From contig JAQBTG010000021.1 of the NCBI GenBank assembly GCA_027624955.1, positions 1 to 60,620 of the forward strand: a stretch of 60,620 bases of DNA, given 5' to 3'. The position numbers were made by a program, and so were the translations under genes. Source of the DNA: Pseudomonadota bacterium (GTDB taxonomy: Bacteria > Pseudomonadota > Alphaproteobacteria > UBA828). Positions 24,681-46,893 of the stretch are shown piece by piece (position 1 is the first letter of the stretch; every line of letters begins with the position of its first letter). The notes beneath the pieces were generated by a model. The model had not been told where the DNA came from and ran no database searches. It saw nothing but the letters and a program-made list of their open reading frames with translations.

Positions 24681-24874
24681 GAGGATTTCTCTGGTTGGCG
24701 AAGGTTGCGAGAGGCGACGGCGGGCCGGCACGGCGAATCTGGGCAAACCCTACTTCAGGTGAGCGCTCCTGTGTAGACGACGTGAAAAAGAATGTATTCG
24801 ATTTGGGGTTTCGCCCGAGCGGCGCTTGAGGCAGACTGCGGCCAATTCTAGATGAAACTTTGGCGGGGAAACGC

Positions 24875-29482: not shown

Positions 29483-29521
29483 CGTGCAACTCCTGAGTCG
29501 CGCGCCGACCTGGGCCTGTCA

Positions 29522-29580
29522 CACAAAAACCCCGGCCGCGCGTCACGGCGCTGGCGCCAGCCCGTTATGTCAGCTGGGGT
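29522..29580 (-). terminator. Possible terminator after the TylF-like gene
   Basis: On the minus strand, the arms ACCCC and GGGGT (29529-29533 with 29576-29580) enclose a second hairpin around the palindrome CTGGCGCCAG (29551-29560), and the outer arm is followed by five U residues. It could end or attenuate transcription before the OppB-like gene. The outer stem is short, so confidence is low. Confidence 0.35.
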
Positions 29581-29585
29581 CTGTA

Positions 29586-31695: not shown

Positions 31696-31720
31696 ATGCT
31701 TCGTTTCCCTGAGCTTCCGG

Positions 31721-33667
31721 TTACTCGTCGAACCAGAATGTATCGGGCATGTAGATGCCTAAATGTGATCCAGGATTCCAATTGTAAATTCCGACTTCAG
31801 GCACGTTGCGAAGGTTATTCGCCACGGCGACGGGCTGTAGGACTCCGCTGATAAGCCCGATCGTAAAGACGTTATCGGCATGGATGTCGAGAATATCATG
31901 CCAAATGCGTTGGCGCTCCGGTCCCTTACCGACACGGAACCATTCTTCGTGCAATTCCAAAAGCCGCGCTGCGGCGGGTAATTCGGGCGCCACTCCTGAC
32001 ATGCCTGAGGTCTCGTAATGTTGGCCCCACTGCGACCATTGCAAACTTGTTTGCCTGGTCGGGGAGAATTCTTCGGGGCTCATATCGGCGGTGGGCATGG
32101 CATTTTCGTAGCCGGTCCAGATCGACATTTGCGATTCGCCAGCGTAGATGCGGTTGCGGAAGACTTCGCGCTGTGATGGCTTGGTATAGACTTTGATGCC
32201 GATCTCAGCCCACGCATCTCGCACCAACTCCAGCACATCCGATTGCTCGGTATCTTCGCCTGCCGTCTCGACGATGATTTCAAGCCGGTCGCCGTCGGCG
32301 AACAAGCGGAATCCATCGTCGTCGACATCTGTCAGGCCGGTCTCGTCCAGCAAATGGTTTGCCGCCACCACATCATAGTTTGCCCATTCGTCGCGATAGC
32401 GCGGCTCAAACAGCGGGCTGCCAGGAAGCACCGTGTTGTTGCCCTCGATACCAAGGCCGTAATACATCACCTGATTGATTTCGTGGCGGTTGATCGCCAT
32501 CGACAGCCCACGACGGAAGCGCACGTCGCGGAACAGGGCGCGCCAGCGCTCATCTTTGATATTGAGGTTGGGGTACAACGCCAGGCGCGCGCCACCCGCC
32601 GTGCGCCACAGCCGCACAGTATAGTTGTGCCGCTCTTCGCCTTCCTTGAGAAATGTGTAGTCGCTAAAGTTTAAGTTCCGGGCCTGCAAATCCACTTCGC
32701 CCGAGCCAACCTTGGCCGGGATCAGCTTGCTGTCGGCCACCGTCATCGTGACCTCATCGAAATACGGCAGCTGCCGGCCGTTCGGGTCGACGCGGTGAAA
32801 ATAGGGATTACGCAACCCGACGAAGCGGGTCGCCGGCGGACGGGTTGTGTTGGTCCAGGGCTGCAGGGTGGGCAGGTCGGGATTGTCAAATTTGTACAGA
32901 TTGTCCTTGTTATTGTGCTCCGCCGCCCAACTCCGCAACAGCCGGTTGGTGAGCGCGCCCAGTTTCTTTTTCTTTTCTTTATATCGACCGTGAAATTGTT
33001 CGAGATAATGGGCCGGCCGGTAAATGAACAGCGGCGCCGCGCCGGCGAGCGAGGGTAAAAATGTCGGATTGGGCTGCGACCAGCTATAGCGTACCGTCGT
33101 TTCGTCGATAATCTCGACCACCGGCAGTTCACTGTTCACTCGCAGCGCGCGCGGTGGACCAGAAGGCGAGAGCTCTTCATTGTTGGCGACATCTTCCCAG
33201 TAATAGCGAAAATCTTCGCTCGTGAAGGGATGGCCGTCCGACCATTTATGTCCGTCGCGGAGTTTGAGCGTAAAGACGCGCTCGTTCTCGGCGATCACGT
33301 CGGCGAGAATATCAGGCACCAGGTCCAGCGCTTCGTTGTAGGTTACGAGACGGGTGTAGCCATAGACCGAGAACATTTTCACATCGTTGGAACGATGGAT
33401 CAGCATGCGCCACCGGCCGCCATGGCGGCCAGCCACGCGTTTTTTGCCATCCATCGCGACCACCCGCGGCTCGGTCGGCAGGCGTTCGGCAATCGGCGCT
33501 AGTTCGCCTGCGGCAACCCGCGCTTCGAGCGATGGGGTCTCTATATAAGTTTGGGCGTCAGCCCTCTCCGCCCCGCCCATGACGGCAGCGAGCAACACTA
33601 CGGCCAGCACGCTGGCCAGCAGTGCGGTGCCGGGCAATCTCAAGCAAAGGGGTTGTTGAACTGGCAC
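31721..33667 (-). CDS. ABC transporter substrate-binding protein, family 5
   Basis: A 648-aa periplasmic binding protein of the SBP_bac_5 (OppA/DppA/YejA) family, longer than typical ~540-aa DppA. A signal peptide covers residues 1-38, ending 'ERADA-QTY'. Family motifs are 'LKLRDGHKWSDGHPFTSEDF', 'FRDVRFRRGLSMAINRHEIN' and 'LPGSPLFEPRY'. The length and the phrase 'VYGYTRLVTYNEALDLVPDI' match a subgroup seen with extended-loop permeases. It heads the group with the glycosyltransferase, TylF-like enzyme and the two permeases. Its ligand may be larger than a dipeptide (inference). Confidence 0.92.
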   Translation of the reverse strand: MPVQQPLCLRLPGTALLASVLAVVLLAAVMGGAERADAQTYIETPSLEARVAAGELAPIAERLPTEPRVVAMDGKKRVAGRHGGRWRMLIHRSNDVKMFSVYGYTRLVTYNEALDLVPDILADVIAENERVFTLKLRDGHKWSDGHPFTSEDFRYYWEDVANNEELSPSGPPRALRVNSELPVVEIIDETTVRYSWSQPNPTFLPSLAGAAPLFIYRPAHYLEQFHGRYKEKKKKLGALTNRLLRSWAAEHNNKDNLYKFDNPDLPTLQPWTNTTRPPATRFVGLRNPYFHRVDPNGRQLPYFDEVTMTVADSKLIPAKVGSGEVDLQARNLNFSDYTFLKEGEERHNYTVRLWRTAGGARLALYPNLNIKDERWRALFRDVRFRRGLSMAINRHEINQVMYYGLGIEGNNTVLPGSPLFEPRYRDEWANYDVVAANHLLDETGLTDVDDDGFRLFADGDRLEIIVETAGEDTEQSDVLELVRDAWAEIGIKVYTKPSQREVFRNRIYAGESQMSIWTGYENAMPTADMSPEEFSPTRQTSLQWSQWGQHYETSGMSGVAPELPAAARLLELHEEWFRVGKGPERQRIWHDILDIHADNVFTIGLISGVLQPVAVANNLRNVPEVGIYNWNPGSHLGIYMPDTFWFDE

Positions 33668-34049
33668 GAAATCGCGATTCCGCAGCGTTGCCTAGCGGCA
33701 AGTCCTGATGGCGCACACCGCAGCGCGAACTGTGGCACACACCGTGGTCGTGCGGGCGCGTGTGTTGCTGTCGCAGGCATATCCGCCGCCGCGCATGTCG
33801 CGATGATTTTTCCCTGCCCGCGTCAGCGCGCAAATTGTAACCATTGTTTCGCCCCCAGAATTCCGGTCATTGCCTTCATTCACGTCTTATCGGCCCTTGC
33901 GCCTGCCGGCCGCCAAAGTTCGCTGAGGTTATCATATAGGCCTTTTCCGGTCGAACAAATCAATCGCGCTGGTAAGTCCCGGCTGGTGCCGTTTATTATT
34001 GCTTCAGCGCCGTTTGGGCGGCTGATGAAGGAGCCAATAAGTAGGCGAT
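33668..34049. other. Divergent intergenic region, no gene seen
   Basis: The 382 nt between the substrate-binding protein start (minus) and the methyltransferase start (plus) contain no supported ORF. They should hold the two divergent promoters. GAAGGAG lies about 20 nt before ATG 34050. The half next to the binding protein is GC-rich; the remainder is moderately AT-rich. No clear operator or structured RNA was recognised. Confidence 0.5.
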
Positions 34050-34553
34050 ATGGAAGACAGCCGTCTCGATCAATTCATTCGCCGGATAAAGGCGCAACGC
34101 GCCTGCTTAAATATGGCGGCGCAGCTGGTTGCCGGCATGGACGGCCCCATATTGGAATTTGGCCTCGGCAATGGCCGCACCTACGACCATCTGCGTGAAC
34201 TTTTCCCCGGGCGTGATATCTATGTCTTCGAACGCGACGTTTCCGCCCATCCCGATTGCATTCCCGATGCGGCGCACTTACTACGCGGCGAGTTTAAAGA
34301 AACGCTGCCTGACGCGTTGGCGCGGATCGGCGCTCCGGCCGTCCTTATTCATGGCGATATTGGCAGCGCCGACACGGCGCGCGACGCCGAACTTGTTGCT
34401 TGGCTCGGACCGGCGCTCCGCCCCTTGGCTGCGCCCGGTGCGGTCATCCTCAGCGATCGTGCGCTCGGTGCGGCGATTTGGCCGCTAGAGTCGCTGCCGC
34501 AGGGTGTCGCGCCGGGGGTCTATTTTATGTACCGCGCCGTGGCGCTGCCTTAG
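34050..34553 (+). CDS. Small SAM methyltransferase (Methyltransf_17-like), copy 1
   Basis: A 167-aa single-domain protein with the SAM loop 'ILEFGLGNGRTYDHLRELFP', then 'IYVFERDVSAHPDC', 'AHLLRGEFKETLPDA', 'VLIHGDIGSADTARD' and the end 'GVYFMYRAVA'. It matches the short S-adenosylmethionine methyltransferase family of alphaproteobacteria, function unknown. A paralogue at 46405 shares nearly every motif. This copy stands alone on the plus strand between two minus-strand operons and is followed by a palindromic element. Confidence 0.85.
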   Translation: MEDSRLDQFIRRIKAQRACLNMAAQLVAGMDGPILEFGLGNGRTYDHLRELFPGRDIYVFERDVSAHPDCIPDAAHLLRGEFKETLPDALARIGAPAVLIHGDIGSADTARDAELVAWLGPALRPLAAPGAVILSDRALGAAIWPLESLPQGVAPGVYFMYRAVALP

Positions 34554-34565
34554 AGCAATCCCCGA

Positions 34566-34654
34566 GCAGGTGGCATCACCTGCGACTACGCATTTGCTTG
34601 AATCAAATAGCGCGAGAGCATTTCGCGTGAACGCAAGTGAACGTGAAATGCTCT
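34566..34654. repeat. Intergenic element of three consecutive inverted repeats
   Basis: Three hairpins follow one another: GCAGGTG/CACCTGC with loop GCAT (34566-34583); ATTTG/CAAAT around 34592-34608; and AGAGCATTTCGCGT/ACGTGAAATGCTCT (34615-34654, one mismatch). The array lies between convergent genes and looks like a REP/RIME-type palindromic element of alphaproteobacteria. It may act as a bidirectional terminator or transcript stabiliser. No second copy was seen in this window. Confidence 0.65.
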
Positions 34655-34688
34655 AGGAGACGCCGCGAATCTTCATTCGGAAAAATTC

Positions 34689-35372
34689 CTACTTCGGGAG
34701 GTGAGCGAAATATTCTGCTTCGATGACCTCTTCTTCGCCTTCATCGGCGCCCGGCCGCATCCACGCCAATACAAGCGCCGACGTGCCCTTCTTCTGGAAA
34801 TATTCGAGCTTCAAGGGATACCATATGCCGGCTTCCACGCTGATGTCGGCGGGGCCGACTAAGCGGTCCGCGAGCCTACGCGGGTCATCTAGCAGCGGCT
34901 TGCTATCGTTTTGCCCGACCCACAGGCGCATGCCATCATTGACCAGGGCGAGAAGCTTGAATCGCCCCGATTCCGGAAAACGGACAAAGCCGGTAATGAT
35001 GGCAGCCACAATTGAGCCACGATCGGTGCCAAGCACTGGACCCTTCTGGTTGGCGACAAAATCTATATTCGCTAGCGGCGCGCCCGGATCCGGCTTCTTG
35101 TGATCCAACCAGCTATACAATTCGTCCAGAGAATTCAGCTTCATATAGTAGTAATCGACGGCGAGGCCCGGCTCGAGCACGTCGGCCTCAGGCTGTGGGT
35201 CGGCGGCTTGCGCGCCCTCTGCGTAGGCGGCGGATGACTGGAGCGCCATCGAAAGCGTGACGGAAACCGCGACAGAAACCGCGAGTGCAAGCAACATAAA
35301 AAGGCCTGGCGAAAAGGCAAAAGCCACGCGTGTCCGTGCCGCGCGATTTTTGAGTGTGATTAACATATTCAT
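34689..35372 (-). CDS. Exported PA14-like domain protein
   Basis: A 227-aa protein with a long N-terminal hydrophobic segment ('FMLLALAVSVAVSVTLSMAL') that acts as signal peptide or anchor, ending 'SSAAYA-EGA'. The rest resembles a PA14 carbohydrate-binding beta-barrel: 'VAAIITGFVRFPESGRFKLL', 'NDGMRLWVG', and 'ADISVEAGIWYPLKLEYFQK' before a final 'LVLAWMRPGA'. ATG 35372 is chosen because AAAGGA lies just upstream; longer frames overlap the ATPase gene. It is the last gene of the glycosyltransferase-ATPase operon (37-nt gap). It may bind the glycan product in the periplasm or at the surface (inference). Confidence 0.8.
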   Translation of the reverse strand: MNMLITLKNRAARTRVAFAFSPGLFMLLALAVSVAVSVTLSMALQSSAAYAEGAQAADPQPEADVLEPGLAVDYYYMKLNSLDELYSWLDHKKPDPGAPLANIDFVANQKGPVLGTDRGSIVAAIITGFVRFPESGRFKLLALVNDGMRLWVGQNDSKPLLDDPRRLADRLVGPADISVEAGIWYPLKLEYFQKKGTSALVLAWMRPGADEGEEEVIEAEYFAHLPK

Positions 35373-35409
35373 TTTCTGGAGTATCCTTTCGCTTCGAGCC
35401 GTTTGCCGC

Positions 35410-37305
35410 TCACGATGCGGCGGCGGATATGCCGGCTGCCCGGGCCGGATCGGCGCGCACAAAATGGCCAGGCTCGAATTCTACCAAACCCAAACTACCC
35501 GAGCCATCTATAGTGAACGGCTGCGGCCAGGCCGCGGGCGATGAAGCTTTGCCTTCCATCAACGCACTCAGATCGAGCTTGTTGTCGAGATTGGGCTCCG
35601 GCACCGCGGACAGCAGTGCCTGGGTATAGGGGTGTATGGGGTTCTTAAATAGTTGCTCGCGTGGCGCAATTTCGACCAGTCGCCCGGCGCACATCACCGC
35701 AATGCGTTGGGCGATGTAATCGACCACGGCGAGATTATGCGAGATGAAGAGATAGGTCAGTCCCAGCTTATCCTGCAAATCCTTGAGCAAATTCAGCACC
35801 TGCGCCTGAATGGACACATCGAGGGCTGAGACCGGTTCGTCGCAAATGATCATTTCTGGGCGCAACGCCAGCGCCCGCGCAATGCCGATACGCTGGCGTT
35901 GGCCGCCTGAGAAGCTATGCGGATAGCGCCTGAGATAGCGCGGGTCGAGGCCGACGAGGCGCATCAATTCCTGTACGAATTCACGGCGCTCCTGTTTGTC
36001 GCCTATGCGATGAATAATCAGCGGTTCGGCCACGATGTCGAAAACCGTCATGCGCGGATTGAGTGAGCCGAACGGGTCTTGGAAGATGAACTGGATCTTG
36101 CGACGGAACGGAATGAGCTGGGATGTCGAGAGCCCGCGTATGTCGATTTCCTGTCCGCGGTCGTTGAATTTGATCTCGCCCGAATCCGCGGCGATGGCGC
36201 GCAGGATCAGTTTGCTGAGTGTCGTTTTGCCACAGCCGCTTTCGCCGACCAGGCCGAGACATTCGCCGCGCCGCACTTCGAAGCTGACATCGTCAACCGC
36301 GCACAGGGTGCCCGCCGACTTGTCGCCAATAAGTCCGGCCTTGCGGATGATGAAGTTTTTGGTGACATGCGAGACCTTAAGCAAGGCTTGATCAGCGCCT
36401 GCCGCGTGCGGCTCGAACTTGGTTTGTTCGAGCATGGTCCCGGTTTCCGCTTTGATTTCGCGGATCGGCACCAGCCGTTCGCCGGGCTTCATGTTGAAGC
36501 GCGGCACCGCGCGCAACAAGGATTTCAAATAGGGGTGCTCGGCATTGCGGAAGATGTCCTCAGCCGTGCCGCTTTCCATGAGCTTGCCGTGATACATCAC
36601 AACAACCTCATCGGCGACATTGGCGACGACGCCGAGGTCATGCGTGATCATCAGCACCGCCATGCCGAGTTCACCCTGCAAATCCTTCATCAATTTGAGG
36701 ATTTGCGCCTGGATGGTGACGTCGAGCGCGGTTGTCGGCTCATCGGCAATGAGCAGTGCCGGGCGGCAGATCAACGCCATGGCGATCATTGCCCGCTGGC
36801 GCAAGCCGCCGGATAGCTCAAACGGATATGTTTTCAGCGCGCGTGCGGGATCGGGAAACCCCACCAGGCGCAATATTTCCTGGGTCGTGCTTTTAACCTC
36901 ATTCTTGCCGGCGTCGTAATGCAGGCGAAATGCTTCACCGACCTGATCGCCGACGGTGTGCAGCGGCGAGAGCGAGGTCATGGGCTCCTGGAAAATGATT
37001 GAGATCCGTCCGCCGCGGATACCGCGCATGCGCGCACTGTTGGGGTTGAGTTTGACGATGTCGATCGGCGGGCCGTCCGTCGCCGGATCGTCGAGCAAAA
37101 TCTCACCACCCTCAATGTTCGCCACTTTGGGTAGGATTTGCATGATGGTTTGCGACACGACCGATTTGCCGGATCCGGATTCGCCGACCAGCGCCACGGT
37201 GCCGCCCTTGGGAATGCGGAACGAGATGCCGTCGACCGCCTTGATGATTCCCTCGGCGACATGGAAATGAACTTTGAGATTGTTGACTTGCAGGAGGTCT
37301 GTCAC
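35410..37305 (-). CDS. Double ATPase of an oligopeptide-type ABC importer (DppD-DppF/YejF-like)
   Basis: A 631-aa cytoplasmic protein with two complete nucleotide-binding domains. NBD1 has Walker A 'GESGSGKS' near 39-46, signature '[16 protein letters not shown]' and Walker B '[12 protein letters not shown]'. NBD2 has '[12 protein letters not shown]' near 355, '[16 protein letters not shown]' and '[12 protein letters not shown]'. Each ends in an oligopeptide-type extension ('[10 protein letters not shown]', '[12 protein letters not shown]'). It is fused as in YejF. It overlaps the upstream small membrane-protein gene by 4 nt and sits in the glycosyltransferase operon rather than beside its permeases (27.3-29.5 kb). 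Confidence 0.95.
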
Positions 37306-37889
37306 GTCGCGCTCCCGCCACCGTCGTGGCGACCATCCCTGCCAACATTATCTGTGGCACCAGACATCGCGTCAGCCGAATCCACAACGCCCAGCGCGAT
37401 TAAATTCTGCACTGTCTCCAGGCCGAGTTCGAGCTCCCGTGCCCGCGCTTCGCGTGCGGCGCGCGCCACAAGTATTTCAAATCCTTCGAGCGTGGAATCC
37501 ATTCGAATCGTCCGTTTCTGTCCTCTCAGACGAAGCTGCATCCATCCTCCATGCCGGTCCCGTCTGGTCGAAAAATAGCTCAGCTTGACCTCGCGTAATT
37601 CGCTCCAAGTCACCTTTGAGCCCCACAGGCTACGCAACGTTACACCGCCATTCGAGACCTCGACAAATGTATTGTGACGGATCGCGGTGCGCAGGCCAAA
37701 TACGAAAAACAAAACCGCGAACCCGGCGAGAACACCGGTGACCGCCGGAAGTGGCGTGACCAGGGCCAGGGGAACCAAGGTGAAGGCCAGGCCCAGCGCC
37801 GTATAGAAATAATCCAGTATGATAGCGCGCGCCGGATAGCGCAGACGCTGGGTGGGGCGCTGGCTGGGCTGTTGGTTGGATTCGTCCAT
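37302..37889 (-). CDS. Small membrane protein with PH-like domain
   Basis: A 195-aa protein. ATG 37889 ('MDESNQQPSQRP') is chosen because it overlaps the deacetylase stop as TAATG; the longer frame to 38150 lies wholly within that gene. Two hydrophobic helices ('FYTALGLAFTLVPLALV' and 'VTGVLAGFAVLFFVFGL') are followed by a beta-rich segment 'VEVSNGGVTLRSLWGSKVTW', 'SELREVKLSYFSTRRDRHGG' and 'QLRLRGQKRTIRMDS', similar to bacterial PH-like (YcxB/bPH) domains. The tail is Gly/Asp-rich. Function unknown. Tight coupling to the deacetylase and ATPase suggests a membrane-associated accessory role (inference). Confidence 0.75.
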   Translation of the reverse strand: MDESNQQPSQRPTQRLRYPARAIILDYFYTALGLAFTLVPLALVTPLPAVTGVLAGFAVLFFVFGLRTAIRHNTFVEVSNGGVTLRSLWGSKVTWSELREVKLSYFSTRRDRHGGWMQLRLRGQKRTIRMDSTLEGFEILVARAAREARARELELGLETVQNLIALGVVDSADAMSGATDNVGRDGRHDGGGSAT

Positions 37890-38665
37890 TATGCGGTTGC
37901 CGCGCCGAACAAGTCGGCGGGCGCAATCCACTGGGCGCCGGGATGGTCGGTCGTGCGGGCGAAAAATTCCGCCAGGAACCGCCATGCAGCTTTGTCGTGG
38001 CGCAAATGATGGCTCAGCAAGCCGGTCGGCTCGTCGGCATCCGCAGTGCCCCGGCGGCGCGCCAATAAATGTTCGCAGGTAAGCTTCAACGCCTCGGTTT
38101 CGCCGACAAATACGGCGCCTTGGCGCCAATTGAGGATGTCGACATGACAATTTATCTGACTGAGGCCGGTCTCGGCTTGCGCCGCATCGCGGGCGCCGTA
38201 GGTCGAGATTGCGGCATAGCCGAGCGCCGGCAGGCGCGGTATCAGGTGCGGCGCAATGCGGTTCCAGGGCGGCACCAAAATTGGCAGAAATTGCGTCCCG
38301 AAACGCGCCGACAGCAGCGCCAGTCCGGCGCGCAACTGGCTCTCACACAGATCGGCCGGATGACTGCCGCCCAGTTCGATCTTTTTCTCATTATCGCGCG
38401 CATGGTTTGCGTGCGCGTAACCATGCTGCACCACCCAATGGCCTTGCCCGGCGCCAGCGCTGATCTGGTCCGCCGCTGCGTCGCTTAATTTGGCTGGTAT
38501 GACGGCGATCACCACCGGCGGCGCATCGCCGCCGGCGAGGCCGAGCAATTGGCGCAGCGCCGGTGAATCTTCCGCCGCGTCGTCGTCGCGCCACCACAAT
38601 CCGGCGCGCTGCCCGTTCCCGGCCCAGACGCTTAGTTCATCGTCCAACGCTTGCCAGTTGGTCAT
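37889..38665 (-). CDS. Polysaccharide deacetylase family protein
   Basis: A 258-aa NodB-like protein. The N-terminal 'GLWWRDDDAAEDSPALRQLL' supplies the catalytic/metal Asp cluster, and 'VVQHGYAHANHA' supplies the metal-binding His pair of the HxxxH type. Further features are 'PILVPPWNRIAPHLIPRLPA' and 'GLLSHHLRHDKAAW'. This WWRDDDA branch is found beside glycosyltransferases in alphaproteobacteria. It should remove N- or O-acetyl groups from a glycan or lipid-linked sugar. There is no signal peptide, so it acts in the cytoplasm. It overlaps the glycosyltransferase upstream by 4 nt. Confidence 0.87.
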   Translation of the reverse strand: MTNWQALDDELSVWAGNGQRAGLWWRDDDAAEDSPALRQLLGLAGGDAPPVVIAVIPAKLSDAAADQISAGAGQGHWVVQHGYAHANHARDNEKKIELGGSHPADLCESQLRAGLALLSARFGTQFLPILVPPWNRIAPHLIPRLPALGYAAISTYGARDAAQAETGLSQINCHVDILNWRQGAVFVGETEALKLTCEHLLARRRGTADADEPTGLLSHHLRHDKAAWRFLAEFFARTTDHPGAQWIAPADLFGAATA

Positions 38666-39801
38666 AATGAAACCGATTCGGATATGATTCGGGCGCTCTC
38701 TCCGGCCCCGGCGACGCCGATATTTACGTCGGGCCGCGGCGCCGCCCAGGCCGCGTCGACAGCCGCGGCGAGGCGCTCTGGTGTCATCCCGTCCTCGCGC
38801 ACAATCTGCGCCAATCCTGCCGCCGCCATGCGCTCAGCGCGCACAGTTTGTTCAGTTTCGCCCTTGGCGGCAAACGGGACGAGAACCGAACGCACCCGCG
38901 CGCTCACCACGTCCAGGACGGTATTGTAACCGGCCTGCGAAATAGAAAGATCGGCGGCTTCGAGAAGAGCGGGAAAATCGCTACGCGCGCGCTCCACGAC
39001 CGTGCCGTCATGCGCCAAGCGCTTCAGCGCATCGAACCATTCCGTCGGTAAATTGGGCCCCGCCAGCAGACGCCACCGCCGGTCCGCCAAGACACTCAAC
39101 TCGCGCGCTTCGAGGGCAGTTTGGAGGAGATGGGCACCGACCGCGCCACCACCGGCTGAGACGACAACTTCGCCCGATGCGCCGTAAGGCCCGCCGGGGC
39201 CGACGGCGCCGATATAGCCGGTATAGCGGATCAGATGAGAGATGCGCGCGGCTTCCGGAAAGCTCGCCTCGAACGGGATCAGCTCTGGGTCGCCATGCAC
39301 CAGGACGGCGCGGTACCAGCGCAGCGCCAGGCGTGCCATCTCGCTGTTGCGTGCCGGGTCGCCACGCTCCGTGAGGATGTCGCGCACCGACGCGAAAATC
39401 GCCGGTTTCGGCCGGCTGTGATGCGCCGCCTCAAACAGCGGCAGGAGTTCGGCGGCGAATTGACGCCGTCCGAACGGATACATTTCGGTGATGATCACCT
39501 GTGGCCGATGGGCGCGGTACAGGCTGATCAAGCGGTCGCGGCGGGCGGCGCGAAAGGCGCTATCGGGCTCGCGCCCGTCGGCATCCACGGTGGCTGAAAA
39601 GGTGGCGTCGGTGGACCGCAGCGGCGGCAATTGTTCGAATTTTGCGGCGCCCAGATCAAGTCCTTGCAGCGGCATGCCGCCGGACACCAGCAGCACGTCG
39701 AATTCGCGTTCCGCCAGAGCCCGGGCGAGGGCGGCGGCGCGCCGTAGATGTCCGATGCCGAGAAGATGCTGTACCCAGATCAGCGCCCGCCCCTCGCTCA
39801 T
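38662..39801 (-). CDS. MurG-like predicted glycosyltransferase, second relative
   Basis: A 379-aa GT-B-fold protein of the same predicted-glycosyltransferase group as the protein at 30463. Start 39801 ('MSEGRALIWVQHLLGIGHLR') overlaps the phosphatase stop as ATGA; the longer frame adds only phosphatase sequence. Features are 'LLGIGHLRRAAALARAL', 'VVVSAGGGAVGAHLLQTALE', 'LSISQAGYNTVLDVVSARVR' and 'VPFAAKGETEQTVRAERM'. In MurG-like enzymes the last two segments bind the nucleotide-sugar. Donor and acceptor are unknown. It is the fourth gene of a tightly overlapped operon. Confidence 0.88.
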   Translation of the reverse strand: MSEGRALIWVQHLLGIGHLRRAAALARALAEREFDVLLVSGGMPLQGLDLGAAKFEQLPPLRSTDATFSATVDADGREPDSAFRAARRDRLISLYRAHRPQVIITEMYPFGRRQFAAELLPLFEAAHHSRPKPAIFASVRDILTERGDPARNSEMARLALRWYRAVLVHGDPELIPFEASFPEAARISHLIRYTGYIGAVGPGGPYGASGEVVVSAGGGAVGAHLLQTALEARELSVLADRRWRLLAGPNLPTEWFDALKRLAHDGTVVERARSDFPALLEAADLSISQAGYNTVLDVVSARVRSVLVPFAAKGETEQTVRAERMAAAGLAQIVREDGMTPERLAAAVDAAWAAPRPDVNIGVAGAGESARIISESVSL

Positions 39802-40400
39802 CCCGCACTCGGGGCCGCGATCAGACTCACATTGCTGCGCGCCAGGCTGGGCCGGCCCTCGGCATCCAGGTGAAACTCCTGGGCGGCGTTCCAATCGAAC
39901 TTGATCGGTGGGCGGCCGAGCATATCCCAGCCCACGGCGCGGGCAAAAAGGGCGCGCACGATGCCCTTATGGCAGACGCCGATCACCGTGCCCTTATCCG
40001 CCGCGATCTCGCGCAGCCAGGGCGCCAAGCGCTCCTGCAATTGGCGCGGGCTTTCGCCGCCGGGGGCAGAAAAATCCAGGCCCCGCGCTTCGACCTCGGT
40101 CATATATTGCGGGTCATTGAGGCGCAATTCGTCGAGCGTCCGGCCTTCCCATTCGCCCCAATGCATCTCGACCAGGCGCGGCTCGCAGGTCAGTCGCCAG
40201 GCGCCCAATGCGCGCGCCGTCTGCACCGCGCGCAGCAAGGGGCTGGAGACCCAGCGTCCGTCGGCGAATTCCGCCGGCAAACGCCAGCCGGCGAGTTCGG
40301 CCCAGCCTTTTGCGCTAAGCGCAATATCCGTAAGTCCTTGTAGACGGCGCGCCTCGTTCCAGGCTGTCGTCGCATGACGGATCATGACCAACCGTGTCAT
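39798..40400 (-). CDS. Histidine phosphatase family protein
   Basis: A 200-aa member of the phosphoglycerate-mutase-like superfamily. The phospho-acceptor His is in 'VMIRHATTAWN', the second basic residue cluster in 'WVSSPLLRAVQTA', the catalytic Glu region in 'MHWGEWEGRTLDELRLNDP', and the second His in 'VIGVCHKGIVRALFA'. It is a small-molecule phosphatase by family. Within a glycosyltransferase operon it could act on a sugar phosphate or lipid intermediate (inference). It overlaps both neighbours by 4 nt. Confidence 0.9.
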   Translation of the reverse strand: MTRLVMIRHATTAWNEARRLQGLTDIALSAKGWAELAGWRLPAEFADGRWVSSPLLRAVQTARALGAWRLTCEPRLVEMHWGEWEGRTLDELRLNDPQYMTEVEARGLDFSAPGGESPRQLQERLAPWLREIAADKGTVIGVCHKGIVRALFARAVGWDMLGRPPIKFDWNAAQEFHLDAEGRPSLARSNVSLIAAPSAG

Positions 40401-41560
40401 TGTCGTGTCCCTCGTCGTATGGCCTGCGCCGCCGCGAGAGCCTGGTTCAAAACCGTAACTGCCGCCGTCATGCCGTGTTTCGATTCCGCCCGTGCCGCCG
40501 CCGCTTCGGCCATGGCCATCCTCCGCGCGTTGTCGCGGGTCAGATCGACCACCGCTTCGGCAAAATCAACTTCGTTCCACGGGTCGATCAGTATGCCGGT
40601 TTCGCCAGTGGCGACAATCTCAGACACGCCGCGCCAGTTTCCCGCGACCACTGGCAGTCCCGCCGCCGCCGCTTCTAGAAAAATCATGCCGAACGCTTCG
40701 TTCACCGCCGGCCAAACCAGCAAGTCCGCCGCCGCGTAGTAGGCGGTCAAATCTTCGGCGTTCTGTTTGCCGGCAAAAACTACATTGTCGCTGCCGATCG
40801 GCCGCAGCGCTTCCTCCACCGACTCGCGTGCTGAGCCATCGCCGACGACGAGCAACTGCCACGGCGGATCGGCGATCAGGTTGAGCGCGCGGCCCATCAG
40901 ACGGTAGGAGGCCAGCTTGTCGCCGGGGCGCATCATGGCGACCGTCAGCAACCACGGGCGATTTACGTCAAGGCCATGACGCACGGCAAGCGCCTCGCGG
41001 TGCCGCAGGCGTTCGGCGCGTGCCGCGCGGTAGGGCGCCGCCTCGAGAAACGGCGCGATGCGATGCAGGCAGGCCGGGTTCTTTACCACCGGCAAGAGCG
41101 CTTCCTGGTCTTCCGGCGTAAAAGACAAGATCGCGTCGGCGCGGGCGATGGCGCGCAGCGACGCTTCGAGGCCGGCACCATAGGGTCCGCCGCTCTGCTT
41201 GCGCGCGTAAGACGCCTCAGCGGCAACATAGGGAATGTCGAGCGCCGCACTGACCGCCGGGCCGAGCCAATCCGGTGCCTTGTGGTAGAGATGATAGGAG
41301 AACCAGAGATCGGGCCGTGGTGGGCCGTCGGCGGCCTGCCAGTCGGCGATCATCGCCGCCGCAATCGCGGCGCCGCGCTTCGCCAGCGCGCGCTGCGCCG
41401 CGCCATCGCCGTCACCGTCATAGGCGCGAAAATCCGACGCCAACGTCACCTCATGGCCGCCCATTTCAAGCGCCCGCCACAATAGTTGGGCGACGCGCCG
41501 GTCGCCCGAGGGCGACGGATGGTTGGGCGCCTTCATCGGCGCGTAAAAAGCGATGCGCAT
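40397..41560 (-). CDS. Glycosyltransferase family 4
   Basis: A 387-aa GT-B glycosyltransferase. The N-terminus 'MRIAFYAPMKAPNHPSPSGD' is typical. The C-terminal GT1/GT4 domain has 'PWLLTVAMMRPGDKLASYRL', 'QLLVVGDGSARESVEEAL', 'DNVVFAGKQNAEDLTAYYAA' and the donor-binding EX7E segment 'NEAFGMIFLEAAAAGLPVVA'. It has no signal peptide and is cytoplasmic or peripheral. It lies 3 nt after the first GT4 gene and overlaps the phosphatase by 4 nt. Known GT4 enzymes build LPS, capsule or glycolipids; the product here is unknown. Confidence 0.92.
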   Translation of the reverse strand: MRIAFYAPMKAPNHPSPSGDRRVAQLLWRALEMGGHEVTLASDFRAYDGDGDGAAQRALAKRGAAIAAAMIADWQAADGPPRPDLWFSYHLYHKAPDWLGPAVSAALDIPYVAAEASYARKQSGGPYGAGLEASLRAIARADAILSFTPEDQEALLPVVKNPACLHRIAPFLEAAPYRAARAERLRHREALAVRHGLDVNRPWLLTVAMMRPGDKLASYRLMGRALNLIADPPWQLLVVGDGSARESVEEALRPIGSDNVVFAGKQNAEDLTAYYAAADLLVWPAVNEAFGMIFLEAAAAGLPVVAGNWRGVSEIVATGETGILIDPWNEVDFAEAVVDLTRDNARRMAMAEAAAARAESKHGMTAAVTVLNQALAAAQAIRRGTRQ

Positions 41561-41563
41561 CCG

Positions 41564-42856
41564 TTAACGTACCGGCGTTGGAGCCACTGGCGCCAGCCCA
41601 AAGCGTGGCGCCAGCCCGAACCGCAGCGCCAGCGATTCGATGCAGGGCTCGAGGGAAAATTTCTCGTGCACCAGAACCCGTCCAGCGCTGCCGAGGCGAT
41701 CGCGCAAGCCTGCGTCAGTGATCAGGCGCCTCAGCGCCTGAGCCGCGCCGTCGATATCACCAGGAGCGACAAGCAGGCCGTTTCGCTCCGGCGCGATCAA
41801 TTCGGGGATGGCGGATATATTGGTCGCCACCACAGCGAGGCCTTGGGACTGCGCTTCCATCAGCACATTGGGCAGGCCGTCGCGGTCACCATCGGCCGCC
41901 TGGCGGCTCATCAGCGCAAACAGATCGGCGCGGCGGTAGGCGTCGAGCACGGCGGCTTGCGCCAAGGCGCCACGAAAGATGCAGCGGTCGGCGATGCCGA
42001 GGCGCTCGGCTTGGTCCTTCAAACGCTCCTGTAAGGGCCCGCCTCCGATTAGTTCAAATCGCCAATGCAGGGTATCGGGGAGGCGCGCCAGCGCAGCAAG
42101 TAGATCGTCATGGCCCTTTTTTTCAACCGCGCGGCCGATCGAGAGAATCATCATCGGATTCTCGGCCACGCTGCCGTCGCGCTCCGGTCGGGCCCCCAAC
42201 GGCTCCGGCAACTCTAGCGGCTGTGGCGCGGGTGGAAAGCGCGTCAGATCAAGGCCGTGATAGCTCAAATGCACGCGGCCCTCGGGCGCCAGGGCAGATA
42301 GATGCTCGAAGTTTGCCCGCGTGCAGGTCACGGCCCAGGTGCAATCCGCAAGCTTTTCCGATTTTTCCCAGCGCGCTGAAGTCCAAATATCCTTGGCGTG
42401 GGCCGAGCAGCTCCATTTGAGGCCACGCAACAGGGCGGCATAGCGCGTCACGGAGGCGGGAGTATGGAGAAAATGGGCGTGTAAATGGGTGATGTCGGGC
42501 GCTAATTCATGCGCCAGCACGAGGGCTTGGCCAAACCGGCGGATGCGATTGCGCGTACGGTCGCGGCGGAAATCGGCGAGCCAGCAACGCCGCGCGGCGG
42601 CGTAACCGGGGGCGCGCCTCAGGGCCCGCCAGGCGCGGGCCACGCGAATCGGCTCGTGGTGCAGATATTCCGGCAGATAGCACACGGGAGCGACGATTTC
42701 GCCGTGCACCGGATGGCGTTCGCGGTCGGTGGGATGGCGCAGCGAATAGAGCCGGATATCAAGGCCACGCTTCTCCAGCGCCCTGATTTCCTGCGCAATG
42801 AAGGTTTCGGAGAGCCGCGGATAGCCCTTGAGCACAAATGCCACAGCGTCGCTCAT
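41564..42856 (-). CDS. Glycosyltransferase family 4 (colanic-acid-type)
   Basis: A 430-aa GT-B enzyme and the first gene of the operon. The N-terminal 'VLKGYPRLSETFIAQEIRAL' is the signature of the WcaL/colanic-acid-like GT4 group. Later parts are 'HLHAHFLHTPASVTRYAALL', 'LSIGRAVEKKGHDDLLAAL', 'FELIGGGPLQERLKDQAERL' and 'EAQSQGLAVVATNISAIPEL'. The C-terminus ends with a near-repeat 'RFGLAPRFGLAPVAPTPVR'. It is divergent from the ABC exporter gene at 43000 (143-nt gap), so both operons may share a control region. Confidence 0.92.
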   Translation of the reverse strand: MSDAVAFVLKGYPRLSETFIAQEIRALEKRGLDIRLYSLRHPTDRERHPVHGEIVAPVCYLPEYLHHEPIRVARAWRALRRAPGYAAARRCWLADFRRDRTRNRIRRFGQALVLAHELAPDITHLHAHFLHTPASVTRYAALLRGLKWSCSAHAKDIWTSARWEKSEKLADCTWAVTCTRANFEHLSALAPEGRVHLSYHGLDLTRFPPAPQPLELPEPLGARPERDGSVAENPMMILSIGRAVEKKGHDDLLAALARLPDTLHWRFELIGGGPLQERLKDQAERLGIADRCIFRGALAQAAVLDAYRRADLFALMSRQAADGDRDGLPNVLMEAQSQGLAVVATNISAIPELIAPERNGLLVAPGDIDGAAQALRRLITDAGLRDRLGSAGRVLVHEKFSLEPCIESLALRFGLAPRFGLAPVAPTPVR

Positions 42857-42999: not shown

Positions 43000-45783
43000 A
43001 TGGACAAGAATATCTATAAATTTATCTTCAAACACACCAAGGGGCAGCAGCTTTATATCCTCTTGGTGACGGTATTCTCTATGCCGTTTTACTATGCTTC
43101 GCTTGATATCCCCAAGTTGATCATCAATTCGGCGTTGGAGGTCGACAATCCGGCCGTTATCGGCGATGAGTTTCCGCGCCCGCTGAAGATGTTCGGTATC
43201 GGATTAGTGGACATGGAACAGCTGACCCTGTTGGGGTCGCTGTGCATCATTTTCCTCTTTCTCGTGCTCGTTAACGGCGGCTTTAAGATGTACATCAACA
43301 TCTATAAAGGCCGCATGGGTGAGCGCATGCTGCGGCGTCTCAGATTCCTGCTCTATTCGCGCATCCTGCGCTTTCCATTGTCGCATTTCCGCAAGGTGAG
43401 TCAGGGCGAGCTGATTCCAATGATCACCGCCGAGGTCGAGCCGCTCGGCGGCTTTATCGGCGATGCCTTCGCCGTGCCGGCCCTCCAGGGTGGCCTGCTG
43501 TTGACGGCGATCTTTTACATCTTCTCACAGGATCCTCTGATGGGGGCGGCGTCGATCCTGCTCTATCCGGTTCAGGGCTGGATCATCCCGAAGCTGCAAA
43601 AGCGCGTGAATATGCTGGGCAAAGCGCGTGTGCGCGAGGTGCGCAAGCTGTCGGAGAAGATCGGTGAATCGGTTTCCGGTATTCAGGAAATCCACGCCAA
43701 CGACACAGCGCAGTATGAATTGGCCGATTTCTCCGAGCGCTTGGGCACGATCTACCTCATTCGTTTTCAGATTTACAACAAAAAGTTCTTCATCAAGTTC
43801 CTGAACAATCTGCTGGCCCAGCTCACACCGTTCTTTTTCTTTTCGATTGGCGGCTATTTGGTGATTGAAGGAAAAATATCGATGGGTTCGTTGGTTGCCG
43901 TATTGGCCGCCTATAAGGACCTGTCGCCGCCGTGGAAGGAACTGTTGACCTATTACCAAATTCAGGCCGATTCGCGGATCAAATATGACCAGGTGATCAG
44001 CCAGTTTGAGCCTCAAGGCCTGATGGATGAAGACAAACAATATTCGGACGCCGACGAGTTTGAGTCGTGGGAGGGCGAAGTCGCGGCGGCCAATTTGAGC
44101 CTGCAAGACGAAGACCAGGTGACCATCGTCAACGGCGTCAGTTTCAAGTTTCCGGTTTCCGATCATGTCGCCATCGTTGGCTCCTCGGGCAGCGGCAAGG
44201 AAGAGCTGATGTTGTTGCTGGCGCGCCTCATCGAGCCGACCGGCGGGCGGCTCAACGCCGGCGGTAAAGAGTTGAGCGACTTGCCGGAATCGGTGACCGG
44301 GCGGCGCATTGGCTTTGTTGGGCAGAACGCCTACATCTTTTCGTCCAGCCTGATGGAGAATCTGCTGTATGGCCTGAAGCATCGTCCGCGTGAGGAAGAG
44401 GAGTCCGCCCCGGCAGAGGCCGTCGAGACGTCGGAAGCCACCGAGGCGCAGGAACCCGCAGGAAAGCAGGCAAAGATACGGAAGAAGCGGAAGAAAGGCG
44501 GCGACGATCCGCCGGACGCTGCTGCGTCGCGCCGGAGTTGGCTCGCCGAATCGGCTCGCGCCGGTAATTCCAAGCATGATATTTATCACGATTGGGTGGA
44601 TTACGATGGCGCCGGCATGGGCTCGCCGGATGGCGTCGCGACGGCCGCGCTCAAGGCGATCAAAATCGCCGACATGGAGGAGGATGTTTACCAATACGGC
44701 ATGCGTGGCTCGCTCGACCCGACGGAGAGCGGCGAGGCGGCTGAGCGTATTCTCAAAGCCCGCGCCGCGCTGATGGCGCGCCTCAAAGAGCCAGCCTATG
44801 CCGAACTGGTCGAGCCGTTCGACCGCGCGAGCTATAATCTGAATGCCACTTTGGCGGAAAACCTTATCTTCGGAAATCCAGTCGGCGACGCCTTCGATAT
44901 GGAGAAGCTGGCCGAGAATTCCTATGTTTTGGAAGTGCTGGAAAAAGCGGATTTGATCGACGATCTGCTGAGCTGCGGCCACCAACTCACCGCCACGATG
45001 ATCGAACTGTTCGCCGATTTGCCGCCGGATCACGAATTGTTCCAGCGCTTCAGCTTTATCAGCGCCGACGATTTGCCCGAATACCAGACTCTGGCAACCC
45101 ATACCGATAAGGACAAGCTCTCCGAATTGGGCGTCGAAGATCGCACGCGTCTGTTGTCACTGCCGTTCAAATTGATCCCCGCGCGGCACCGGCTCGGTCT
45201 CATCGATGAGGATATGCAAGTTAAAATCCTCGAGGCGCGGCGTATCTTTCACGAGGAACTGCCTGAGGAATTGCAGAATTCGATCGAGATGTTCGACGCC
45301 GAAAAATACAATTCAGCGGCAACTCTGCAGGATAATATTTTGTTCGGTAAATTGGCCTATGGTCAGGCGCAAGCGGCGGAGAAAATCGGCGAGCTGGTCT
45401 CCGAGGTCATCGACGTGCAGGATCTGCGCTCCACGGTTATGGAGGTCGGGCTCGATTTTCAGGCCGGCATTGCAGGCTCGCGTCTTTCTTCCACGCAACG
45501 CCAAAAACTCGCCATCGCCCGCGCCGTGATGAAGCACCCCGAAGTGCTCATCTTGTCTGAGGCCACGGTGGTTCTCGAAAACACCACGCAAACGCGCATT
45601 CTCAACAATGTATTGGCGGAATTTTCGGGCAAGGGAGTCATCTGGTCTCTCCACCGCGCCAGCGACGCCGAGCGATTTAAACAAATATTGGTGATGAAGA
45701 ATGGCCGGGTGGTGGAAGACGGAGACTTTGCCGCATTGAACCAGCCTGGCACCGCGTTCAAGGAACTACTGGACAACGAATAA
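43000..45783 (+). CDS. Atypical ABC exporter with degenerate ATPase motifs and repeated Q-loop segment
   Basis: A 927-aa fused exporter. A type IV ABC transmembrane domain covers about 15-330 ('VFSMPFYYASLDIPKLIINS'). The NBD is unusual. Walker A at 394-401 is 'GSSGSGKE', with Glu where Ser/Thr coordinates Mg. The signature at 829-833 is 'LSSTQ', and Walker B at 850-854 is 'LILSE', with Ser for Asp but the catalytic Glu854 kept. The H-loop is His885. Walker A and signature are about 430 residues apart instead of ~100. The insert has an acidic/Lys-rich linker (about 465-510) and repeats of the Q-loop element: 'SSSLMENLLYG', 'ATLAENLIFG' and 'ATLQDNILFG'. A cyclic-nucleotide-binding protein gene follows. 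Confidence 0.9.
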   Translation: MDKNIYKFIFKHTKGQQLYILLVTVFSMPFYYASLDIPKLIINSALEVDNPAVIGDEFPRPLKMFGIGLVDMEQLTLLGSLCIIFLFLVLVNGGFKMYINIYKGRMGERMLRRLRFLLYSRILRFPLSHFRKVSQGELIPMITAEVEPLGGFIGDAFAVPALQGGLLLTAIFYIFSQDPLMGAASILLYPVQGWIIPKLQKRVNMLGKARVREVRKLSEKIGESVSGIQEIHANDTAQYELADFSERLGTIYLIRFQIYNKKFFIKFLNNLLAQLTPFFFFSIGGYLVIEGKISMGSLVAVLAAYKDLSPPWKELLTYYQIQADSRIKYDQVISQFEPQGLMDEDKQYSDADEFESWEGEVAAANLSLQDEDQVTIVNGVSFKFPVSDHVAIVGSSGSGKEELMLLLARLIEPTGGRLNAGGKELSDLPESVTGRRIGFVGQNAYIFSSSLMENLLYGLKHRPREEEESAPAEAVETSEATEAQEPAGKQAKIRKKRKKGGDDPPDAAASRRSWLAESARAGNSKHDIYHDWVDYDGAGMGSPDGVATAALKAIKIADMEEDVYQYGMRGSLDPTESGEAAERILKARAALMARLKEPAYAELVEPFDRASYNLNATLAENLIFGNPVGDAFDMEKLAENSYVLEVLEKADLIDDLLSCGHQLTATMIELFADLPPDHELFQRFSFISADDLPEYQTLATHTDKDKLSELGVEDRTRLLSLPFKLIPARHRLGLIDEDMQVKILEARRIFHEELPEELQNSIEMFDAEKYNSAATLQDNILFGKLAYGQAQAAEKIGELVSEVIDVQDLRSTVMEVGLDFQAGIAGSRLSSTQRQKLAIARAVMKHPEVLILSEATVVLENTTQTRILNNVLAEFSGKGVIWSLHRASDAERFKQILVMKNGRVVEDGDFAALNQPGTAFKELLDNE

Positions 45784-45888
45784 GAGAGAATTAATAAATT
45801 TATTCCTTCACCCCTTGGGCCTGTACGGCCGCGACCCGATATAAGTGAATTGTCCTGCGGCGGGACTGATAGGATTCAGGAGCAACTC

Positions 45889-46362
45889 ATGGCCACGGAT
45901 CTACAACAGGACGTCGATCTTCTTAGAAACGTTCCACTGTTTCGCAACCTCGACGCCGCCAAGCTCAAATTGTTGGCCTTTACCAGCGAGCGCCTCACCT
46001 ATGCCGCGGGCGACAGTTTGTTCAACCAGGGTGATTCGGGCGATACCGCATACGTGATCGTTGAAGGTGAGGCCGACATCATCATCAACACGCCGGGCGG
46101 CCCAATCGTCGTGGCAACGGTCAAGCAGAACGATTGGGTGGGTGAAATCGCCATTCTTTGCGATGTGCCGCGTACTGCGACGATCACCGCAAAAAGCAAA
46201 CTGACCACCTTGCGCATCTCCAAGGATGTGTTTTTCCAGCTGGTCATGCAGTTTCCACAAATGTCGGTCGAGGTCATGCGCGAGCTGGCGTTTCGGCTGG
46301 AGCGCACCAACCGCCGGCTGCAGGAGGCCGTTGGTAAATTGAAAGAGGCCGAACAAAAATAG
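45889..46362 (+). CDS. Cyclic nucleotide-binding domain protein
   Basis: A 157-aa stand-alone cNMP-binding (Crp-like) domain without a DNA-binding region. ATG 45889 is chosen because CAGGAG lies 7-8 nt upstream. The domain starts 'LLRNVPLFRNLDAAKLKLLA', then 'YAAGDSLFNQGDSGDTAYVI', 'QNDWVGEIAILCDVPRTATI', which is the phosphate-binding cassette with Gly-Glu and Arg, and ends in a basic helix 'ELAFRLERTNRRLQEAVGKL'. It probably senses cAMP, cGMP or a related ligand and may regulate the ABC exporter upstream (105-nt gap). The link is inferred from position. Confidence 0.9.
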   Translation: MATDLQQDVDLLRNVPLFRNLDAAKLKLLAFTSERLTYAAGDSLFNQGDSGDTAYVIVEGEADIIINTPGGPIVVATVKQNDWVGEIAILCDVPRTATITAKSKLTTLRISKDVFFQLVMQFPQMSVEVMRELAFRLERTNRRLQEAVGKLKEAEQK

Positions 46363-46366
46363 GCGG

Positions 46367-46402
46367 CGCGATATTTACCGCGATATTTACCGCGATTTTT
46401 AC
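46367..46402. repeat. Three tandem 12-bp repeats filling the gap before a start codon
   Basis: The unit CGCGATATTTAC occurs at 46367-46378 and 46379-46390, and with one change (CGCGATTTTTAC) at 46391-46402. The array occupies nearly all of the 42 nt between the cNMP-protein stop and ATG 46405. No Shine-Dalgarno is present in it. Copy-number change would alter spacing to the ATG in 12-nt steps. Confidence 0.9.
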
Positions 46403-46404
46403 CC

Positions 46405-46893
46405 ATGAGCCGGCTCGACAGCTTCGTCCGCCGCGCCGCCGCGCAGCGCGATTGCCTCGCCGACGCGGCGCGGCGGATCGCCGATCTCCCGGGGCCGGTG
46501 ATCGAATTGGGGCTTGGCAACGGGCGCACCTATGACCATTTGCGCCACCTTCTTCCGGCACGCGAGATTTTCGTATTCGACCGCCAAGTTGCCGCGCATC
46601 CAGATTGTGTGCCCGACGCAGGGCATCTGTTTCTCGGCGATTTCCGTGCGACGCTGCCTGACGCCATGACGCGTCTCGGCGCGCCAGTTGCTTTGCTGCA
46701 CGGCGATATCGGCAGTGGCAACGTCGTGAAGACGGCGGCTCTTGCCACCTGGTTGGCGCCGGCGATTCGGCCGTTGCTGGCGCCGGGCGCTGTGGTGGTG
46801 TGTGATCAGCCTTTGCATGATGCCGGCCTCAAGCCGCTTGAGGCGCCGCCAAGCGTCGAAGCCGAGCGTTATTTCATGTACCGCGCCTTGTGA
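46405..46893 (+). CDS. Small SAM methyltransferase (Methyltransf_17-like), copy 2
   Basis: A 162-aa paralogue of the protein at 34050. The SAM loop is 'VIELGLGNGRTYDHLRHLLP', followed by 'IFVFDRQVAAHPDCVPDAGH', 'FRATLPDAMTRLGAP', 'ALLHGDIGSGNVVKTAA' and the end 'RYFMYRAL'. The start at 46405 follows three 12-bp tandem repeats and has no visible Shine-Dalgarno, so its translation may depend on the upstream cNMP gene or be weak. Function unknown; membership of a glycan-modifying set is inferred from neighbours. Confidence 0.85.
   Translation: MSRLDSFVRRAAAQRDCLADAARRIADLPGPVIELGLGNGRTYDHLRHLLPAREIFVFDRQVAAHPDCVPDAGHLFLGDFRATLPDAMTRLGAPVALLHGDIGSGNVVKTAALATWLAPAIRPLLAPGAVVVCDQPLHDAGLKPLEAPPSVEAERYFMYRAL

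Follow-up and report, generated by a model that had tools for sequence, protein, structure and literature searches.

An exporter-like ABC protein with an eroded ATP site, a duplicated insert and a cyclic-nucleotide-binding partner in an alphaproteobacterial glycan cluster

The DNA analysed here is a stretch of 60,620 nucleotides from an alphaproteobacterium of the UBA828 lineage (GenBank GCA_027624955.1, contig JAQBTG010000021.1, forward strand), called the window below. The study concerned a gene for an ATP-binding cassette (ABC) exporter-like protein and the downstream gene for a cyclic nucleoside monophosphate (cNMP)-binding protein. The two genes and the recognizable parts of their products, including those of the nucleotide-binding domain (NBD), are listed with the evidence used; pLDDT is the predicted local distance difference test score of the structure models.

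43000-45783, + strand: ABC exporter-like protein of 927 aa, with a transmembrane domain, a degenerate NBD and an insert of ~310 aa
43000-44034, + strand: transmembrane domain, residues ~1-345 (PF00664)
44179-44205, + strand: seemingly rewritten Walker A motif GSSGSGKEE, residues 394-402 (family pattern G-x4-G-[KR]-[DE])
44341-44373, + strand: element 1, SSSLMENLLYG, the true post-Q-loop segment (alignment to ABCB4 NBDs and family alignment)
44377-44545, + strand: variable, low-complexity charged linker, residues ~460-515 (alignment length varies; pLDDT mostly <50)
44563-45039, + strand: insert unit A, residues 522-680 (HHalign against unit B)
44818-44874, + strand: element 2, FDRASYNLNATLAENLIFG (FDRASYN...ENLIFG), within unit A
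45067-45534, + strand: insert unit B, residues 690-845, continuing into the pre-signature helix (HHalign against unit A)
45292-45348, + strand: element 3, FDAEKYNSAATLQDNILFG (FDAEKYN...DNILFG), within unit B
45484-45498, + strand: degenerate signature LSSTQ (canonical LSGGQ), residues 829-833
45544-45567, + strand: degenerate Walker B motif VLILSEAT, residues 849-856, with Asp replaced by Ser and Glu854 retained
45643-45663, + strand: H-loop WSLHRAS, with His885 retained
45889-46362, + strand: stand-alone cNMP-binding protein of 157 aa (PF00027, E 1.7e-19)
46141-46182, + strand: phosphate-binding cassette GEIAILCDVPRTAT of the cNMP protein (alignment with PKG/PKA-type domains)

The 43000-45783 product was matched above the gathering scores by both ABC_membrane (PF00664, E 6.8e-19) and ABC_tran (PF00005, E 1.1e-18), so that the two domains of the ABCB/MsbA-like exporter superfamily stand in one chain. 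Judged from these domains, it is an ABC exporter homologue, a term that is not meant to imply ATP-driven transport. A functional ATP site (GK[ST], D-E, LSGGQ and His) was not found, the window copy having GKE, LSE and LSSTQ in place of the first three. The preliminary description of this DNA had read the motifs in the same way (Walker A GKE, Walker B LILSE, signature LSSTQ), and its estimate of about 430 residues between Walker A and the signature was close: 435 were counted, against 103-104 in six canonical exporters of relatives.

Loss of the ATP site extends over the family. Residues were counted in 68 full-length homologues, five being scored (Walker A Lys and Ser/Thr, Walker B Asp, catalytic Glu and H-loop His). 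The Walker A Lys position was occupied by Lys in 38/68 and Arg in 22/68, and by neither in 8/68. At the following position Ser or Thr was kept in only 4/68, Asp or Glu being found in 52/68. Walker B Asp was present in 8/68 (Asn in 35/68, Ser in 16/68) and the Q-loop Gln in 18/68. In the signature, positions 3 and 4 were each Gly in 8/68, while Gln was found in 57/68. No homologue had all five scored residues and 15/68 had none of them. The non-canonical character claimed in the preliminary description, and the recurrence of the substitutions on which it was to be judged, were thus borne out across the class. Its statement that the catalytic Glu and the H-loop His are kept was right for the window copy and failed for the family, in which they are retained in 38/68 and 25/68, respectively. 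The window copy ranks among the less degraded homologues. In the Sinorhizobium meliloti orthologue the corresponding sequences are GGTSGGGEA (Walker A), FNQP (Walker B) and WVLANQ (H-loop); this copy and that of Mesorhizobium are without the Walker A Lys, the Walker B Asp/Glu and the H-loop His.

These changes are not random. Because Lys or Arg is directly followed by Asp or Glu in 48/68 homologues, the P-loop seems to have been rewritten as G-x4-G-[KR]-[DE]. The two residues may form an internal salt bridge at the position of the ATP phosphates. The canonical Walker A was also considered as an ancestral mark, but the two GK[ST] copies (loci L131 and L138) were nested rather than basal in a quick tree with many weak forks.

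The distance between Walker A and the signature is filled by a duplicated insert. Units A and B were matched by HHalign with a probability of 98.8% (E 6.9e-17, 84 columns), the match spanning ILxAR...LVExFDxxxYNxxATLxENLxFG. Transmembrane control segments in the same comparison remained below 1%. Weaker matches to both insert copies were given by the true post-Q-loop segment (probability 77-91%, E 1e-5 to 1e-6). From the match between the units and these weaker ones, the insert appears to repeat the segment downstream of the Q-loop. The FD...YN copies at 44818 and 45292 lie exactly where the preliminary description had put them, and the first element begins at 44341. What had been called a repeated Q-loop element is so only in part: copy 1 is at the real Q-loop, whereas copies 2 and 3 repeat the ENLxFG part downstream of it. 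Asn621, Asn779 and Gly783 were invariant (68/68), an Asn thus being fixed in both FD..YN...ENLxFG elements. Conservation has shifted from the ATP site to these two elements. As the residues of the ATP site have been eroded or exchanged, while the duplicated elements are conserved, loss of ATPase function fits better than a new ATP site. The earlier idea of a nucleotide site rebuilt by internal duplication therefore stands for the duplication; the ATP site itself looks dismantled.

Relatives of the insert were found neither in Pfam or NCBIfam nor among PDB sequences, which gave chance-level matches only (e.g. DHC_N2, E 0.012). Structures were modelled using AlphaFold2 with nine sequences in the alignment. 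The NBD-only model (pLDDT 74.6) was used because the full-length model (pLDDT 55.5) was poor in the transmembrane domain. In this predicted structure the ABC core is retained (ComA NBD, VIA-align Z 30.0, rmsd 1.9, 240 residues), the insert is all-helical and the linker at ~460-515 is of low confidence. Foldseek, run with the full-length model, found generic exporters at low TM scores. Among the large regions of the family alignment, the transmembrane domain ranked highest in conservation, its 333 columns having a mean top-residue frequency of 0.63.

An insert-only profile matched 131/385 alphaproteobacterial genomes in 86/276 genera, about a third of the sample. Across the phylum sample it matched 25/299 genomes, all Alphaproteobacteria. 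When 60 related genomes were searched with the protein, about 20 yielded long orthologues. Eight true relatives, each in a record of Alphaproteobacteria, came from a scan of 84,980 species genomes that is sensitive to close relatives only. The insert was present in 257 plasmid records, chiefly of Rhizobium and Sinorhizobium, and was absent from the phage records and viral contigs searched; a viral or phage home was therefore dropped. The ratio of nonsynonymous to synonymous substitution rates (dN/dS) against near relatives was ~0.11 for the whole gene and fell to 0.07-0.08 in the transmembrane domain, which indicates that the ABC gene is under purifying selection.

The downstream gene probably starts at ATG 45889 rather than at TTG 45850. 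As proposed in the preliminary description, its product is a stand-alone cNMP-binding protein. It has the PF00027 fold, and its cassette GEIAILCDVPRTAT follows the G-E-x-A...P-R-T/S-A pattern. On this evidence the partner has a canonical cNMP pocket and is expected to bind cAMP or cGMP. The cassette is retained in nearly all stand-alone partners. In one lineage, represented by loci L147, L148 and L149 (genomes G174 and G349) and L093 (G043), a genome may carry as many as three paralogues in which ABC and cNMP parts are fused, and in these the cassette is partly lost. No helix-turn-helix or other DNA-binding domain was matched by Pfam in the 157-aa protein, and its identification as a Crp/Fnr transcription factor failed on its length and this lack. 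The position of the cNMP gene was recorded at 66 loci. The script placed it directly downstream of the ABC gene at 52 of them; L129, with an overlap of two long frames, brings this number to 53. At eight further loci the two are fused, with the cNMP part at the C-terminus; naturally fused forms occur in G043, G061, G125 and G286. Constant adjacency, by which the pairing was to be judged, thus held in adjacent or fused form at 61 of the 66 loci. A stand-alone cNMP protein (51%) was also found at L182 (G302), where no cluster genes are recognizable.

In the genome of the window, 19 class III cyclase domains were counted. Such cyclases were found in 42 of 43 family-positive genomes and in 15 of 24 family-negative ones (Fisher p 2e-4, uncorrected for phylogeny). 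The single family-positive genome without one is G128, which is also without a cNMP protein. An adenylate/guanylate cyclase gene lies inside the orthologous cluster of S. meliloti pSymB, and likewise in Mesorhizobium. Taken together with the pairing, this gives strong genetic grounds for supposing second-messenger control.

The pair belongs to a larger conserved gene cluster, whose other members in the window are given below (percentages are those of the comparison with S. meliloti where so stated).

46405-46893, + strand: S-adenosylmethionine-dependent methyltransferase, Methyltransf_17 (PF12692, E 4.4e-58), a frequent third gene
41564-42856, - strand: glycosyltransferase GT4b, the divergent neighbour, orthologue in the S. 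meliloti PPP cluster (54%)
40397-41560, - strand: glycosyltransferase GT4a; the inferred smb21252 matches it best (43%)
39798-40400, - strand: histidine phosphatase, cluster-conserved (PF00300)
38662-39894, - strand: GT28-type glycosyltransferase
37889-38665, - strand: polysaccharide-deacetylase-like protein, 38% to the S. meliloti gene so annotated; no Pfam match at the default threshold
35410-37305, - strand: Opp/Yej-type double ATPase of a peptide-type importer, cluster-conserved (PF00005 twice, PF08352; 58%)
31721-33667, - strand: family 5 solute-binding protein of the importer (PF00496; 49% to S. meliloti)
30463-31695, - strand: GT28-type glycosyltransferase (50%)
27306-29482, - strand: two importer permeases, 64-68% to S. 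meliloti (PF00528 on 28484-29482)
24860-25708, + strand: MBL-fold hydrolase, S. meliloti cluster orthologue (39%)

At least 12 orthologues of window genes, spread over 24860-46362 and including the ABC and cNMP pair, were found in one S. meliloti pSymB cluster, with orthologous gene content and order. Similar clusters surround most homologues for which a wide neighbourhood was available. The methyltransferase is the third gene at many loci, not all. A second Methyltransf_17-like open reading frame (ORF) lies at 34050-34553 (+) in the same cluster (58% identity to the 46405-46893 product), and two copies were likewise seen in several relatives (L105, L112, L115, L132). The peptide/oligopeptide-type ABC importer (27306-37305, -) is a conserved part of the glycan cluster in distant Alphaproteobacteria. 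A second ABC_membrane gene, or partner exporter half, was recognized neither in the window cluster nor in that of S. meliloti.

If genes are counted from SMb21247/SMb21249 (products in PMC5498481), the first glycosyltransferase of the S. meliloti cluster becomes smb21252; the ABC and cNMP genes would therefore fall within smb21252-smb21271, a region without annotation in the reference record. Nine genes of this range are required for phazolicin resistance in S. meliloti (Travin et al. 2023; PMC10128002) and were proposed to make a surface polysaccharide, the phazolicin-protecting polysaccharide (PPP). In the same transposon insertion sequencing (Tn-seq) experiment cyaA insertions were depleted (PMC10128002). 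Seven of the nine genes are induced under Myxococcus attack (PMC10315480). By analogy with the S. meliloti Tn-seq (PMC10128002), the window cluster may make a surface polysaccharide as well.

Taken together, these results lead us to favour, tentatively and at a little less than an even chance, an ATPase-degenerate exporter that is gated by a cNMP-binding subunit and that moves the cluster glycan or licenses its export. In this proposal, which extends to the physical complex, the identity of the ligand, the gating, the dimer state, the glycan cargo, the energy source of the exporter and any remaining ATP binding, ATPase activity would have been given up, or cut back to a structural role, in a group of MsbA/ABCB-like alphaproteobacterial exporters. 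The constrained transmembrane domain would presumably form a (homo)dimer and most likely still handles the cluster glycan or a lipid-linked form of it. The dimer would move or flip the glycan or glycolipid produced by the glycosyltransferases of the adjacent cluster (in S. meliloti the PPP pathway), or license its export. With the NBD fold kept and the ATP site dismantled, the duplicated helical insert would take over as the conserved surface. The cNMP protein would bind cAMP or cGMP and dock on this surface. Ligand binding would then open or close the paired NBDs, moving or locking them in place of ATP, and glycan export would track the cellular cyclic-nucleotide level. The stricter form, in which ATP is not used at all and cNMP binding to the partner on the duplicated NBD platform drives or gates a glycan or lipid translocator, seems possible but rather doubtful.

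Several points weigh against this proposal. The full-length model is poor, as its pLDDT indicates, and docking of the cNMP protein on the insert is a proposal. The window copy still has Walker A Lys400, Walker B Glu854 and H-loop His885, and for this reason some residual ATP binding or hydrolysis may persist. Five of the 66 loci are without an adjacent cNMP gene. At four of them (L131, L116, L139, L146) the genome encodes a close cNMP protein elsewhere (51-61% identity); the fifth is in G128, a genome of 2.0 Mb in which the ABC protein (L121) is present without the partner. In G107 and G177 the ABC gene lies away from the cluster and the cNMP gene remains inside (L183, L184), at the usual position of the pair beside glycosyltransferases and a methyltransferase. 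This arrangement raises the possibility that the cNMP protein works for the glycosyltransferases too. The single cyaA mutant was only slightly changed (PMC10128002), and the text of that paper neither lists the nine genes nor says if the ABC and cNMP genes belong to them.

The persistence of K400, E854 and H885 in the window copy would suit an exporter that is still ATP-driven, in which the Walker A Lys/Arg and acidic residue, the catalytic Glu and residues of the insert form a working site and the cNMP protein modulates only. The intact core fold of the predicted NBD agrees with such a site, as do the Lys or Arg of 60/68 homologues and the Glu of 38/68. It has to contend, however, with the change of Ser/Thr to Asp/Glu in 52/68, the loss of Walker B Asp in 60/68 and that of most signature glycines, and with the 15/68 that are conserved although all five scored residues are gone. 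As some members have the Walker A Lys and others lack it, a single shared ATP chemistry is hardly possible, and we regard continued ATP drive as a minority prospect. Loss of the ATPase residues would also be in line with a protein that does not transport, for instance a membrane-anchored cyclic-nucleotide receptor or scaffold that activates the cluster glycosyltransferases or another exporter. Fusion to the cNMP domain at eight loci, and the two genomes whose clusters have a cNMP gene without an adjoining ABC gene, are in keeping with this. Such a role is nevertheless unlikely: the conservation of the transmembrane domain goes beyond the needs of an anchor, and the window and S. meliloti clusters offer no other recognized ABC exporter half to be activated.

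Missing activity could also be supplied by a second chain. The protein would then be the degenerate half of a heterodimeric exporter, and a gene elsewhere would provide the half with the working ATP site; this appears distinctly improbable. Most known heterodimers, ABCG5/G8 excepted, keep an intact Walker A in their degenerate half, whereas here it appears rewritten, and no partner half was recognized in the conserved cluster. The window genome does encode other exporters, and heterodimeric exporters often have a degenerate site (PMC7756269). Local gene decay or a sequencing or assembly error, for which nothing but the motif changes would speak, is ruled out for practical purposes by the open frames of similar length across the class, the same kind of substitutions in them and the dN/dS of ~0.11.

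Among known systems, MsbA/ABCB-type exporters share the transmembrane domain and NBD fold with the window family, and the best family-level matches were MsbA-like, below the cut-off. They differ in the ATP-site motifs, lost here, in the distance between Walker A and the signature (about 104 residues against 435), in the duplicated helical insert and in the nearly constant cNMP partner. Identity with MsbA itself (TIGR02203) was rejected, 193 bits being obtained against a curated cut-off of 602. Identity with S. meliloti MsbA2 was also rejected, since this protein is encoded in a separate operon at ~938 kb of pSymB (PMC3687685) and the orthologue lies at 841.7 kb. A single degenerate site is a familiar feature of some exporters: TM287/288, TmrAB, TAP, BmrCD and ABCG5/G8 (Walker A Lys to Arg) share motif degeneration, a kept NBD fold and a structural dead site (PMC7756269). 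Such heterodimers keep one catalytic site, whereas the window family is degenerate in every member examined and no canonical partner half was recognized in the cluster. HetC of Nostoc and the cNMP-domain peptidase exporters offer the likeness of an ABC exporter that needs a cNMP-binding-type domain (PMC10986499). HetC differs in its essential catalytic ATPase residue, its N-terminal domain in the same chain, its C39 peptidase and its binding of ppGpp (PMC10986499). The SthK channel and the PKG/PKA regulatory domains have the same ligand-binding fold and cassette, and SthK is a cNMP-gated membrane protein; its membrane part is different, and in the window family the cNMP domain is mostly a separate protein. 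Exporters with a degenerate site and an exporter with a cNMP-type domain were thus already known. The literature searched, from which subscription papers were mostly excluded, revealed no system that unites family-wide loss of the ATP site, an insert of duplicated units located between the Q-loop and the signature, and a cNMP protein as a separate subunit.

ABC transporters are defined by ATP, and this is a widespread, constrained family in which the ATP site is damaged in every copy examined and a cNMP-binding protein, the putative subunit, is retained. If the proposed gating is right, the ABC architecture could be re-keyed to another ligand, beyond the step to channel gating taken by CFTR. 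The pair would also provide candidate genes for the exporter and the second-messenger input of an uncharacterized surface polysaccharide that shields rhizobia from antimicrobial peptides. The publication on the S. meliloti PPP cluster names glycosyltransferase mutants alone and leaves the roles of the ABC and cNMP genes undescribed. Public annotation deserves caution here: proteins labelled 'ABC transporter ATP-binding protein' and 'Crp/Fnr regulator' at such loci are probably neither ordinary ATPases nor transcription factors, and the latter label looks wrong. The S. meliloti cNMP protein (L158, 13321-13785; 154 aa) carries the Crp/Fnr transcriptional regulator annotation, although no DNA-binding domain could be detected in the orthologue from the window. 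In the pSymB reference of S. meliloti 1021 (L160, NC_003078.1, about 841723-844996) the ABC gene appears as a pair of ORFs. The matching stretch there has 3274 bases, one more than the 3273 of most other strains, through either a real difference or a sequencing error. Because of this split and the extra base, the ABC gene may have been hidden in the model strain.

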